From assembly GCA_021463145.1 (NCBI GenBank), contig JAJTWZ010000021.1, positions 1-64,000 on the forward strand: DNA of 64,000 bases, given 5' to 3'. Numbering within the stretch: the first letter of the stretch is position 1; every line of letters begins with the position of its first letter. Below the pieces are notes generated by a model. That model was not told the DNA's origin. It made no database searches and saw nothing but the letters and a program-made list of their open reading frames with translations. Position numbers and translations under genes: made by a program. Shown here piece after piece: positions 40,174-63,481 of this stretch. The stretch comes from Blastocatellia bacterium. GTDB lineage: Bacteria > Acidobacteriota > Blastocatellia > UBA7656 > JADIYM01.

Positions 40174-40743
40174 ATGAGGGACACCGGAGCACTCAGTCTG
40201 GCGCTCGGAGCAGACCCCGAAAGTCACTTTGGCGGAAAGGGCCGCCTGAGCATTATTCGGAAGGGCAGATATCACCCTGTCTATCTGTTCGTCCGCGGAG
40301 ACTCGACCATCGCCGAACTGCAGTGGCAAGGACCGAGACGTGTCGTCTACCGCGTCGCCGATTCCGACGCAGTGTTCGAAATGAAGGTCGGCCACATGCG
40401 GCGCAAAATCCGCGCCGTCGATCACGACGGAAGGGGTTCTCGCATTGCGGTCAGGTCGAATCGCGATTACGTGCGCCGGAAAATGCGAATCCAGATGGGC
40501 AACGGCGACAACTTTATCGTGACACGCGTGAAGAACGAACGGTGGGGCGGAAACCGCCTCGAGGTCCACAAGCAGCACTACGTGAACAACCTTCTTATCT
40601 TCCATTTCAGTCCGTCGGATCCTTCGGCGCCCGTTCTCGTAGACGTCGAAAGGCTCATGAAATGGGAAGCCCGGCACTTCCACATGCTGCTGGCGCTCGT
40701 GAGCGCGCGCATCACGCTCGAGCATCGCTGGACGGGGAAGTAA
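40174..40743 (+). CDS. conserved hypothetical protein with beta-rich, basic sequence
   Basis: ATG 40174 gives a 189-residue product. It has short beta strands (GRYHPVYLFVRGDSTIAELQ, RRVVYRVADSDAVFEMK), many arginines and lysines, and a C-terminal helix (WEARHFHMLLALVSARITLE). There is no signal peptide and I recognise no family. It converges on the cysteine-cluster gene, whose 3' end it overlaps by 32 bases. Confidence 0.6.
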   Translation: MRDTGALSLALGADPESHFGGKGRLSIIRKGRYHPVYLFVRGDSTIAELQWQGPRRVVYRVADSDAVFEMKVGHMRRKIRAVDHDGRGSRIAVRSNRDYVRRKMRIQMGNGDNFIVTRVKNERWGGNRLEVHKQHYVNNLLIFHFSPSDPSAPVLVDVERLMKWEARHFHMLLALVSARITLEHRWTGK

Positions 40744-41311
40744 GCTCTCGGGTCTTTCGTTCCCGATTCCGCTCCAGTTGCACGAGCCAGACGGGTATGG
40801 TCCGGTAACCCCAGCGCGACACATCCGCGCCGTAAACGAGGCGATTCAGGTCCGCGACTGTACGCTCGGCTTCAACGAGCGATTCATTGCCGGGAAGATC
40901 CTCCTCGCGTTCGTAGCACCCGTGATGGATACACGGAGCGGGCTTCGCGTCCCGGTGCACCAGGCAGCCGGCTCCAGGCTCGAACAGCGGACACGCGTAT
41001 GTGGTCCCGAACGTGTCGCCCTCGGCGGAGAGTCCATAGGCACTGACCGCATCGCGGGCGCGAGTCAGCACGCGGGCCCGATCTTCGTCAGAGAATCGCC
41101 GGTCGTCGCCGAGAACGCGCATCATCGCGTCGGCCTCGAGCCGGGTCACGTTCACATTCACGAACTCGGCATCGGCGCAGCACGGAGTGAGGCACGTGGC
41201 GCAGTCTTTGGCCTTGAAGCCGAACCTCTGGTCCACGTGCGCCCTGAGCGACTCCTTGACATCCCGCAGACGAGCCAGGGCGCGCTCGCGCGTCAGTCTC
41301 CATCGAGCCAT
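40712..41311 (-). CDS. YkgJ-type cysteine-cluster protein
   Basis: ATG 41311 gives a 199-residue protein with CATCLTPCC (about 38-46) and further cysteines in the middle (CPLF, CLVH, PAPCIHHGCY). This is the layout of the YkgJ/UPF0153 family, thought to bind zinc or an iron-sulfur cluster. Its function is unknown. The upstream frame is longer but unlike the family. Confidence 0.8.
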   Translation of the reverse strand: MARWRLTRERALARLRDVKESLRAHVDQRFGFKAKDCATCLTPCCADAEFVNVNVTRLEADAMMRVLGDDRRFSDEDRARVLTRARDAVSAYGLSAEGDTFGTTYACPLFEPGAGCLVHRDAKPAPCIHHGCYEREEDLPGNESLVEAERTVADLNRLVYGADVSRWGYRTIPVWLVQLERNRERKTRELTSPSSDARA

Positions 41312-41348
41312 GGAGGCAAGTCTACGGGGACTGTCGAATGCGAGCCAG

Positions 41349-42698
41349 TCAGGACGGAGGCGGCCGGTACTTGGGCTTCTCGCCAGGCGCGAGAGGCGGA
41401 GGAGGAATCTGCACCGGCGGGGCGCCAAACTTCGATGGGTCGAACGACGGCAGAGGCGCCAGTTCGATGCCCACGGCGGCCGAAGCGGGCAGGCCGGCCT
41501 CGACCGTGAGCCGCACCGAAGTGCTGCGCGGCGCCGGTGGTGCTCCAGAGCGCCTGGCTCCATTCGGCCTGGCCGGTGACGTCGCCGCTTCGGGCGCCGC
41601 TGCAGCCGGTGGACCGAGCGGGGCATCCGGGCCGAATTCGGGCCCCAGATCGGCGTCGGTACGCGCCTGACCCCCTGGCTCGCGACGTTCGGCAACGACC
41701 GGCGCGGATGGCCGCTCGTCCTCCGCGTGGTTGCCGTCCGGCAGATCGGTCGAAGCAAGTTCCGTGTCGTCCGATGTAGCGGTGAACCGGCGGAACTCGC
41801 CGTATCGGAAAGTCAGGCGGTATTTCACCGAGGACGAAAAGCCCGACCCTTCGCGTGCGAAGTGCCCGAGCGACGAGAAGACGATCGTCGTTGGCAGTAG
41901 CACGTCGAAGCGAGACTGGGCGTACTTGAACTCCAGCCGTTGAACGACGACCGGGGAGTTGGTTCCCGCAGAAAGTACGGTCACTTCTCGGATCTCGCGG
42001 ACGAGTCTGCCGGTCACGGGTTCGAGCCAAACCCATCCACGAAAAAGCGGCTCTCCTGCTCTCAGTTCGGACGGCAACGAGAGGTTGAAGCCGAATCGCG
42101 AGTTGGGCACGACCTGCTGATAAGAAAGAATGAGCGTTTCACGGCCGTCGATCCGCTCGGCGCCTGATTCCTTGAAAGTGAAGAGCGCGCGGGCCCACAC
42201 CTGGAGCGGCAGTCCCTGGCTCATCGTCAATCCGCTCACGGTGTAGTCGAGGTCGTAACGCGAGCCCTCCGCGTTCACCCGCTTCAGCTCGTCGCGCACC
42301 GACTTGGACCGCGCCTGCCTGGCGAACAGCGCCTGCACGCGCTCTTCTCGTCCGGCGACCGGTGCTCCATCCACGGATTTCACGTCGCGGTATTCGGAGA
42401 TTGAACCGTTGTCGAGAACCGAGCGATAAACGATGAGGTCCGACACGATCGTCCGCCGCCTCGACACCTCGCCGTTCTCGCGGAATTGTTCGACGGTTTT
42501 CGTCTCTTCGGCGGTAATGTCGCGAAAGAAAACGAAATAGTCGTGGGCACGGGCGCTGGCTGCGTCGACGAACGAGGAAAGACGCATCTCTTTTAGCGTC
42601 GGAACCGGCTGTTGAGCCAGCGGCACGGCCGACGGCGCCAGAAACACTCTCGCCGCCAGTAGAATGGCCAGAACCTGACGATGATGCGCCGACTTCAT
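41349..42698 (-). CDS. secreted protein of unknown function with proline-rich tail
   Basis: ATG 42698 opens a 449-residue protein with a signal peptide (about 1-29). Residues 35-330 form a beta-rich domain with segments such as RDITAEETKTVEQFRENGEV, FGFNLSLPSELRAGEPLFRG and SVKYRLTFRYGEFRRF. I have the impression this is an acidobacterial family of unknown role. The last 110 residues are disordered and rich in Pro and Ala. The 730 bases upstream hold a strong promoter, a riboswitch-like structure and two terminators, so expression appears conditional. Confidence 0.65.
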   Translation of the reverse strand: MKSAHHRQVLAILLAARVFLAPSAVPLAQQPVPTLKEMRLSSFVDAASARAHDYFVFFRDITAEETKTVEQFRENGEVSRRRTIVSDLIVYRSVLDNGSISEYRDVKSVDGAPVAGREERVQALFARQARSKSVRDELKRVNAEGSRYDLDYTVSGLTMSQGLPLQVWARALFTFKESGAERIDGRETLILSYQQVVPNSRFGFNLSLPSELRAGEPLFRGWVWLEPVTGRLVREIREVTVLSAGTNSPVVVQRLEFKYAQSRFDVLLPTTIVFSSLGHFAREGSGFSSSVKYRLTFRYGEFRRFTATSDDTELASTDLPDGNHAEDERPSAPVVAERREPGGQARTDADLGPEFGPDAPLGPPAAAAPEAATSPARPNGARRSGAPPAPRSTSVRLTVEAGLPASAAVGIELAPLPSFDPSKFGAPPVQIPPPPLAPGEKPKYRPPPS

Positions 42699-42767
42699 CG
42701 CGTGCAATACCTGCACCGCAATTTCAACACACTAGCGGATACACAGGCACGCAAAATCGGACCCTGG

Positions 42768-42807
42768 TAAAAAGATGAAGGGCCGCCGGATGGCCATCCG
42801 GCGGCCC
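42768..42807 (-). terminator. intrinsic terminator 2 of the leader
   Basis: The hairpin at 42780-42807 is a perfect palindrome with arms GGGCCGCCGGATGG and CCATCCGGCGGCCC. On the minus strand it is followed by a T-rich run at 42768-42774. It lies about 70 bases before the start of the secreted protein gene. Confidence 0.75.
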
Positions 42808-42872
42808 CGTGAGCTTGGAGTAGCGAAGATCGAGCCCCCATTCGGTCTTCCAGCCCCAGCCCCACATCGATC

Positions 42873-42900
42873 GCGGACGCTCCTGAGAGCGCCCGCGAAT
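42873..42900 (-). ncRNA. stable inner hairpin of unknown structured RNA domain
   Basis: The minus strand can form TCGCGGGCGCTC, a TCAG loop and GAGCGTCCGCGA, with one G-U or mismatched pair. It sits between the two terminators in the leader, so a second structured domain may lie there. I cannot name it. Confidence 0.4.
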
Positions 42901-42937
42901 CTCCTGCTCGAGCCCTCGAGTTTTTCGAAGTCCCCAG

Positions 42938-42990
42938 AAAAACGAAAAGGCCGCCAGCATGGTCCAGCTTTGGCTGGACCCTCTGGCGAC
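42938..42990 (-). terminator. intrinsic terminator 1 of the leader, overlapping the aptamer end
   Basis: On the minus strand the arms GTCGCCAGAGGGTCCAGCC and GCTGGACCATGCTGGCGGC form a long stem with one internal loop, then TTTTCGTTTTT. The 5' arm begins in the sequence that closes the riboswitch-like domain, so the two structures compete. Confidence 0.75.
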
Positions 42991-43100
42991 CCGGCTGGCC
43001 AACCAATCACAATCGAGCCCCCGTTCGATTGAAACTGGCCTGAGCCCCGCAGTTCTGCGTCCTCCGGTTTCCCGAAGTTTGCTCTGAGCAGAAGAAGAAA
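42985..43100 (-). ncRNA. GEMM-I-like (cyclic di-GMP-I) riboswitch candidate
   Basis: On the minus strand the sequence GAGCAAAC, then a stem TTCGG-GAAA-CCGGA, then GGACGCAGAAC, matches the conserved core of c-di-GMP-I riboswitches: GCAAACC, a GAAA-tetraloop stem, GGACGCAAAGC. A downstream GGGGCTCAGGCCAG pairs with TGGCCAGCC. The following GGGTCGCC resembles the family's 3' closing strand and doubles as the terminator's 5' arm. Deviations are AGAAC for AAAGC and a weak outer stem. The order of promoter, aptamer, terminator and gene is as expected for such a switch. Confidence 0.55.
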
Positions 43101-43165
43101 CTTGATTGTCAACTTTTGCCGCCACCGGCTCCCACTGGAGATACCGGCACTGACGCGACGACCCA

Positions 43166-43194
43166 TTTATACGAATTCAAAGAGTTGGTGTCAA
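43166..43194 (-). promoter_or_regulatory. consensus sigma-70 promoter of the leader
   Basis: On the minus strand TTGACA (43194-43189) and TATAAA (43171-43166) are 17 bases apart. Upstream (43204-43220) are A/T tracts that may form an UP element. The expected start is near 43158. This is the clearest promoter in the window. Confidence 0.8.
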
Positions 43195-43246
43195 CCCCTC
43201 GGACAAAAAAAATCGAAAAAACTCAATTCAAGCACCCCGTAAAGTG

Positions 43247-63262: not shown

Positions 63263-63296
63263 CCACCCTGCCTATCGAGGGGCCAAAGCAGTAAAG

Positions 63297-63481
63297 CGCC
63301 GTAGGCGCGAAAGCACCAGAGCCCACGGCGTAAGCCGTGGGTTTAGCGCCCATTTTCGGTCGAGCCCCGGAGGGGCGAAACACGAATCCGGACTTCTTTC
63401 ACCCCTACGGGGCTTAAACCACTCTCCATCCGAAACCTACGGCTTACGCCGTGGGCTCTGGTGCTTTCGCCCCTACGGGGC
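63297..63481. repeat. palindromic element with AGCCCACGGCGTAAGCCGTGGG units
   Basis: The arms at 63297-63341 and 63436-63481 are inverted copies, and each contains a small palindrome (CCCACGGC-GTAA-GCCGTGGG in the left arm). Between them lie GAGCCCCGGAGGGGC- and CCCTACGGGGC-like hairpins. It resembles REP-type units mobilised by IS200-like transposases; no transposase gene is present. Confidence 0.7.

Follow-up and report, generated by a model that had tools for sequence, protein, structure and literature searches.

A probable GEMM-Ib-like transcriptional ON-switch, with cGAMP as predicted ligand, ahead of a LolA-fold protein gene in a Blastocatellia bacterium

The leader of a secreted-protein gene in a Blastocatellia bacterium (Acidobacteriota) very probably contains a genuine GEMM-I riboswitch of the ON type, in which the aptamer and an intrinsic terminator compete for the same bases. 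The best overall explanation, held with reasonable though limited confidence, is a GEMM-Ib-like transcriptional ON-switch that carries adenine at ligand-reading position 20 (A20), responds to 3',3'-cGAMP and precedes a gene for a protein of LolA-type fold. The aptamer, its A20, its mutual exclusion with the first terminator (T1) and the LolA fold were computed in this analysis, and from them we infer the ligand and the role of the protein.

Organization of the leader and its downstream gene

The window is the whole stretch of 64,000 nucleotides analysed here (contig JAJTWZ010000021.1). The features of the leader and its gene are as follows.

43166–43194, minus strand: sigma-70-type promoter TTGACA-17-TATAAA, exact match
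42982–43093, minus strand: GEMM-I (RF01051) aptamer with an enlarged P3 arm; cmscan 49.5 bits, E 1.2e-6
43083, minus strand: ligand-reading nucleotide, A at the Vc2 G20 equivalent; position 11 of the model as aligned by cmscan
42986, minus strand: C, the Vc2 C92 equivalent, sequestered by T1 (cmscan alignment; folding of growing transcripts)
42937–42992, minus strand: T1, intrinsic terminator with nested hairpin and U-tract; fold -35.2 kcal/mol, z -4.2
42810–42936, minus strand: structured T1-T2 spacer with a 15-bp hairpin and further ones; z -2.9
42769–42808, minus strand: T2, second terminator, palindromic stem and interrupted U-tract; z -4.7
41349–42716, minus strand: secreted protein gene; 455 aa from GTG 42716 or 449 aa from ATG 42698

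On the minus strand, promoter, aptamer, T1, spacer, T2 and gene (42716/42698-41349) follow one another in this order, much as the initial annotation had proposed from the letters of the DNA, with correct coordinates. The promoter that it named is present exactly (43194-43166) and represents the sole match to TTGACA-N17-TATAAA in the 64-kb window even when one mismatch is allowed, against 0.02 expected from shuffles. Its suggestion of a c-di-GMP-I or GEMM-like aptamer is likewise confirmed, since the RF01051 scan that it had recommended returns a full-length match (model positions 1-87) at 49.5 bits, well above the gathering score of 35 and with an E-value computed for the 64-kb window, so that the objection a missing covariance-model score would have raised falls away. 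The aptamer spans 112 nt compared with 87 in the model, owing to the enlarged P3 arm; some P3 pairs are non-canonical in the cmscan alignment, and the binding-site consensus is intact. Identity with the related family c-di-GMP-I-GGC (RF03167) is ruled out, as the score of 44.3 bits falls below the gathering score of 59. Elsewhere in the window, an Acido-Lenti-1 RNA (RF01687) lies at 63295-63341 (minus strand) with 40.3 bits, above gathering.

T1 consists of an outer stem (42992-42983/42957-42948) that encloses an inner hairpin (42980-42973/42968-42961) and is followed by a U-tract (42947-42937); none of 200 shuffles matched its stability. Its 5' arm (42992-42983) lies inside the 3' end of the aptamer, which bears out the overlap with the closing strand that had been noticed earlier, and pairing probabilities make T1 and the aptamer mutually exclusive. 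In ligand-free folding of growing transcripts, T1 reaches a probability of 1.00 once its 3' arm has been made, P1 stays near 0 (0.00), and the C92-equivalent base is locked inside T1. Because the ligand-bound aptamer and T1 compete for the same bases, the ligand should switch transcription ON. RNA polymerase would start at the 43194-43166 promoter and produce the aptamer first. Without ligand, the last aptamer bases (the P3 3' strand, the C92 equivalent and part of P1) would pair with 42957-42948 to form T1, and transcription would stop near 42937. Ligand binding would instead keep these nucleotides within the aptamer, so that T1 would not form and transcription would proceed toward the LolA-fold protein gene. 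The direction of switching inside the cell is thus expected to be ON.

The spacer beyond T1 is more structured than its shuffled versions (z -2.9; 1 of 200 as stable), matches no known RNA family in Rfam and occurs in a single copy in a search of its own genome, so that a repeated RNA is ruled out. The second terminator of the initial annotation was also recovered: T2 (42808-42779, z -4.7) has a 13-bp stem followed by UUCAUCUUUUU and sits about 60 nt upstream of the start codon, between switch and gene. T2 may be leaky, may act as an additional checkpoint, or may mark the end of a short RNA that the switch produces as well; for the gene to be reached, transcripts would have to pass through it. 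Window positions 42780-42807 within T2 form a perfect 28-bp palindrome, which could act on opposite-strand transcription too.

The downstream protein was correctly anticipated to be secreted: it has a signal-peptide-like N-terminal segment and a low-complexity, Pro-rich C-terminus, with no Pfam or NCBIfam match at E<1 and no sequence match in the PDB. Homologs were found in 9 of the 58 genomes searched, its own included. An AlphaFold2 model built from eight homologs (mean pLDDT 78.8) yields significant Foldseek matches to LolA3, DUF1329, LolA-like, MucB/RseB and LprG structures (E 7e-7 to 1e-3), with TM-scores of only 0.2-0.44; the top matches thus place it by fold, and not by sequence family, near the LolA/LolB superfamily. 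What had been described as an undescribed envelope component can accordingly be narrowed to a secreted protein of predicted LolA/LolB-type fold, possibly a carrier or sensor of lipids or lipoproteins. All nine homologous loci in relatives lack the GEMM element, so that GEMM control is not a conserved feature of this gene and the window switch looks newly recruited to it. A small ORF (40712-41314, minus strand) with a CxxCxxxCC-like motif and no Pfam match begins shortly downstream of the LolA-fold gene in the same orientation and is a possible operon partner.

The ligand-reading base and its distribution

The Vc2 core reads G14 C15 A16 C17 A18 G19 G20 G21. Model position 11 (43083) directly precedes the conserved GC of P2, and counting from the conserved core assigns this nucleotide to Vc2 position 20. 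The window core is G C U C A G A G, with U16 and A20 and with C17, A18 and G19 retained, so that the combination characteristic of GEMM-Ib is present, with A (43083) at Vc2 position 20 and C (42986) at position 92. In Geobacter, a GEMM-Ib riboswitch prefers cGAMP approximately 1200-fold, and with the A20G change the Gmet_0970 riboswitch comes to recognise c-di-GMP in place of cGAMP (PMC6456294); conversely, crystal structure 4YB1 is a G20A GEMM-I RNA with bound 3',3'-cGAMP (PMC6274999). Position 20 has been described as contributing to selectivity without acting as a strict filter, and binding of c-di-GMP by cGAMP riboswitches via a protonated adenine is reported (PMC9262584), so that cGAMP is a prediction from A20 and no proof. 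From A20 and the conserved C at the C92 equivalent, 3',3'-cGAMP is predicted, and we regard it, with modest confidence, as the ligand. The initial proposal of control by cyclic di-GMP or a related dinucleotide was correct in kind; A20 favours the latter, making 3',3'-cGAMP likelier than c-di-GMP.

The genome (5.28 Mb) contains three RF01051 matches, on contig C131 (57.2 bits), in the window (49.5 bits) and on contig C57 (42.6 bits), and all three aptamers carry A20, on two different scaffolds. The best of them, on C131, precedes pilM-N-O, which is targeted by cGAMP in Geobacter. The window and pilM aptamers are nearly identical across their first 45-50 nt and are therefore probably copies of one another. 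The 5' half of the C57 aptamer equals that of an element in an order-mate (G004:C296) save for G20A and two other bases; this third element (L019:6579-6659, G000:C57) is not immediately followed by a clear gene; the nearest solid ORF beyond it, for an NAD(P)H-hydrate repair enzyme, begins about 570 nt away.

Within the class, 89 of 162 genomes have RF01051 matches. Among the listed matches that could be read, position 20 is G in 119 of 133 aptamers, A in 13 and C in one; A20 occurs in all six listed aptamers from three genomes of one family (f8) and in 4 of 124 outside this trio and the present genome. Thirty-one GEMM loci of the class, including the C131 element, precede pilM, mostly with G20. 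Class elements mostly lack an overlapping terminator, and one of T1's strength is unusual there. One genome has a lone A20 element with an overlapping terminator (L066, G058:C133:4692-4777) alongside four G20 aptamers; the protein encoded downstream is similar to those that follow A20 switches in Gemmatimonadota (E 4e-49), which suggests horizontal transfer.

A pattern scan of named genomes for the A20 subtype (CUGCUCAGAGCAAA...GACGCAGAG) detected at least 80 loci (L141-L220). Among the matches listed, the subtype is common in Gemmatimonadota (about 42 by record titles) and Nitrospirota (19, including Manganitrophus), with five in Deltaproteobacteria and single records of other groups, including an acidobacterium with pilM downstream. 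Three copies lie in one locus in Candidatus Manganitrophus (L212) and likewise in a Gemmatimonadetes MAG (L173). Most of the related switches listed have an ORF shortly downstream, and the genes behind the listed elements encode secreted proteins, cytochrome-like proteins and pilus components. Among the listed aptamers that were parsed, 70 of 76 form all five P1 pairs, and a GGCGG...TTT terminator arm is present in 46; P1 covaries, with 86 of 95 pairs formed across 19 distinct strand combinations, a level reached by none of 5000 shuffles. This kind of switch is already known, and the A20 family, judged from these matches, extends well beyond Geobacter.

Candidate synthases and competing explanations

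The cGAMP reading is weakest where the synthase of the ligand is concerned. Among the 14 GGDEF domains of the genome no classic Hypr domain (Ser with GGDE[FY]) was seen, most carrying the c-di-GMP-type Asp, and a CD-NTase as the source of cGAMP is not supported, as no SMODS match was found in the genome. The sole Ser enzyme seen among the 14 is an FHA-GGDEF protein (L020:4304-5377, G000:C108:28303-29376) with Gln304, Ser348 and GGEEY. Its orthologs (L258-L286, L287-L311) occur in most genomes of the class, and nearly all of those read have Ser at the PleD D344 position and GGEE[FY]; at position 304 the protein of this genome has Gln, whereas Ser is found in family f3 and Arg in f2, f4 and f8. 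Natural Ser/Thr enzymes have been reported to have exclusively GGDE[FY], and GacA and WspR mutants with Ser and GGEEF are inactive (PMC6456294). At the sequence level, the class-wide Ser/GGEE[FY] FHA-GGDEF family contradicts the former statement. Its Ser is ruled out as decisive proof of cGAMP, because class orthologs have Ser/GGEE[FY] whatever position 20 of the aptamers. In a Chloracidobacterium-like genome, the FHA protein with Ser/GGEEY is the only GGDEF protein seen to carry Ser, and it has Arg at 304, as does the tested Hypr enzyme Cabther_A1065, so that the two may be the same protein.

Ser/GGDEF enzymes of Hypr type (Ser348, no Arg304) were found in all 30 best class matches (L350-L379), from at least 30 genomes, family f8 among them, and an acidobacterium sharing the A20 pilM switch has a Tyr304/Ser348/GGDEY enzyme. 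Genomes with such Ser/GGDEF enzymes often have G20 aptamers, so that a classic Hypr enzyme does not predict A20 and there is no strict correspondence between the ligand enzyme and the base at position 20.

These observations bear on whether the same ON-switch might instead answer to c-di-GMP, supplied in the cell by the many ordinary GGDEF proteins, with A20 merely lowering discrimination. The predominance of c-di-GMP-type Asp, the lack of a classic Hypr domain among the 14 GGDEF domains and the reported binding of c-di-GMP by cGAMP riboswitches via protonated adenine (PMC9262584) fit such a scheme. However, it would leave A20 in all three aptamers, on two scaffolds, in a class where G is the rule, and a Geobacter GEMM-Ib riboswitch favours cGAMP approximately 1200-fold (PMC6456294); we consider it somewhat unlikely. 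Quite improbable is a switch that mainly controls a short structured RNA ending at T2, the gene perhaps being read from its own weaker promoter: the strong T2 between switch and gene and the structure of the T1-T2 stretch (z -2.9, 1/200) are in keeping with it, whereas the single genomic copy, the lack of an Rfam family, the interrupted U-tract that makes readthrough of T2 plausible and the ORF shortly downstream of most related A20 switches among the matches listed count against it. That the aptamer has decayed or arose by chance and has no function, as the occurrence of the element at only one homolog of the gene and the non-canonical P3 pairs might suggest, is extremely improbable in view of the E-value of 1.2e-6, the intact binding-site consensus, the exact promoter and a matched terminator overlapping the right bases.

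The preferred reading, a cGAMP-responsive ON-switch ahead of the LolA-fold gene, draws on the RF01051 score, the dominance of T1 over P1, A20 in all three aptamers, the covariation of the A20 family, the pilM-N-O aptamer and the precedent in G. metallireducens. Against it count the missing classic Hypr and SMODS proteins, the GGEEY motif of the Ser enzyme, the role of position 20 as merely a selectivity factor, the frequent G20 in Hypr-bearing relatives, the position of T2 between switch and gene, and the GEMM-less homologs of the gene. A tentative and rather unlikely extension is that the whole GEMM-I regulon (pilMNO, the LolA-fold protein and the third locus) has moved from c-di-GMP to 3',3'-cGAMP, made by the class-wide FHA-GGDEF enzyme with Ser348/GGEEY in breach of the GGDE[FY]-only rule.

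Relation to known riboswitches and LolA-type proteins

cGAMP riboswitches have been described mainly from Geobacter. The literature searched, which did not include the two PNAS 2015 papers defining cGAMP riboswitches, contains no description of an A20 family in Gemmatimonadota, Nitrospirota or Acidobacteriota, and a text search for the aptamer sequence found nothing relevant. It has been proposed that other bacteria harbour cGAMP-sensing riboswitches yet to be discovered (PMC8835794); the A20 family with ON-type terminators in these three phyla and the Ser/GGDEF enzymes widespread in the class make this proposal directly testable. For the present locus, the prediction is that cGAMP induces type IV pili and a periplasmic LolA-like protein together.

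The protein shares a predicted fold and a secretion signal with the LolA/LolB superfamily (LolA3 9tp6, DUF1329 4z48, MucB/RseB, LprG), from which it differs in lacking a sequence-family match, in an identity of only about 8-13% and in its Pro-rich C-terminal tail. The aptamer follows the same full-length sequence and structure model as c-di-GMP-I RNAs of the Vc2 type (RF01051), above gathering, and has A where Vc2 has G at position 20; the other GEMM-I elements of the class belong to the same Rfam family, whereas they mostly have G20 and mostly lack an overlapping terminator. The closest precedent is the pilM riboswitch of G. metallireducens, a GEMM-Ib transcriptional ON-switch for cGAMP whose terminator excludes the aptamer and sequesters the C92 equivalent (PMC9262584). 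The window switch is distinguished from it by its occurrence in Acidobacteriota, its LolA-fold gene, the enlarged P3, the nested T1 hairpin, T2 and a ligand that is predicted, and resembles it in the A at the selectivity position, the sequestration of the C92 equivalent by the terminator and the mutual exclusion of aptamer and terminator.
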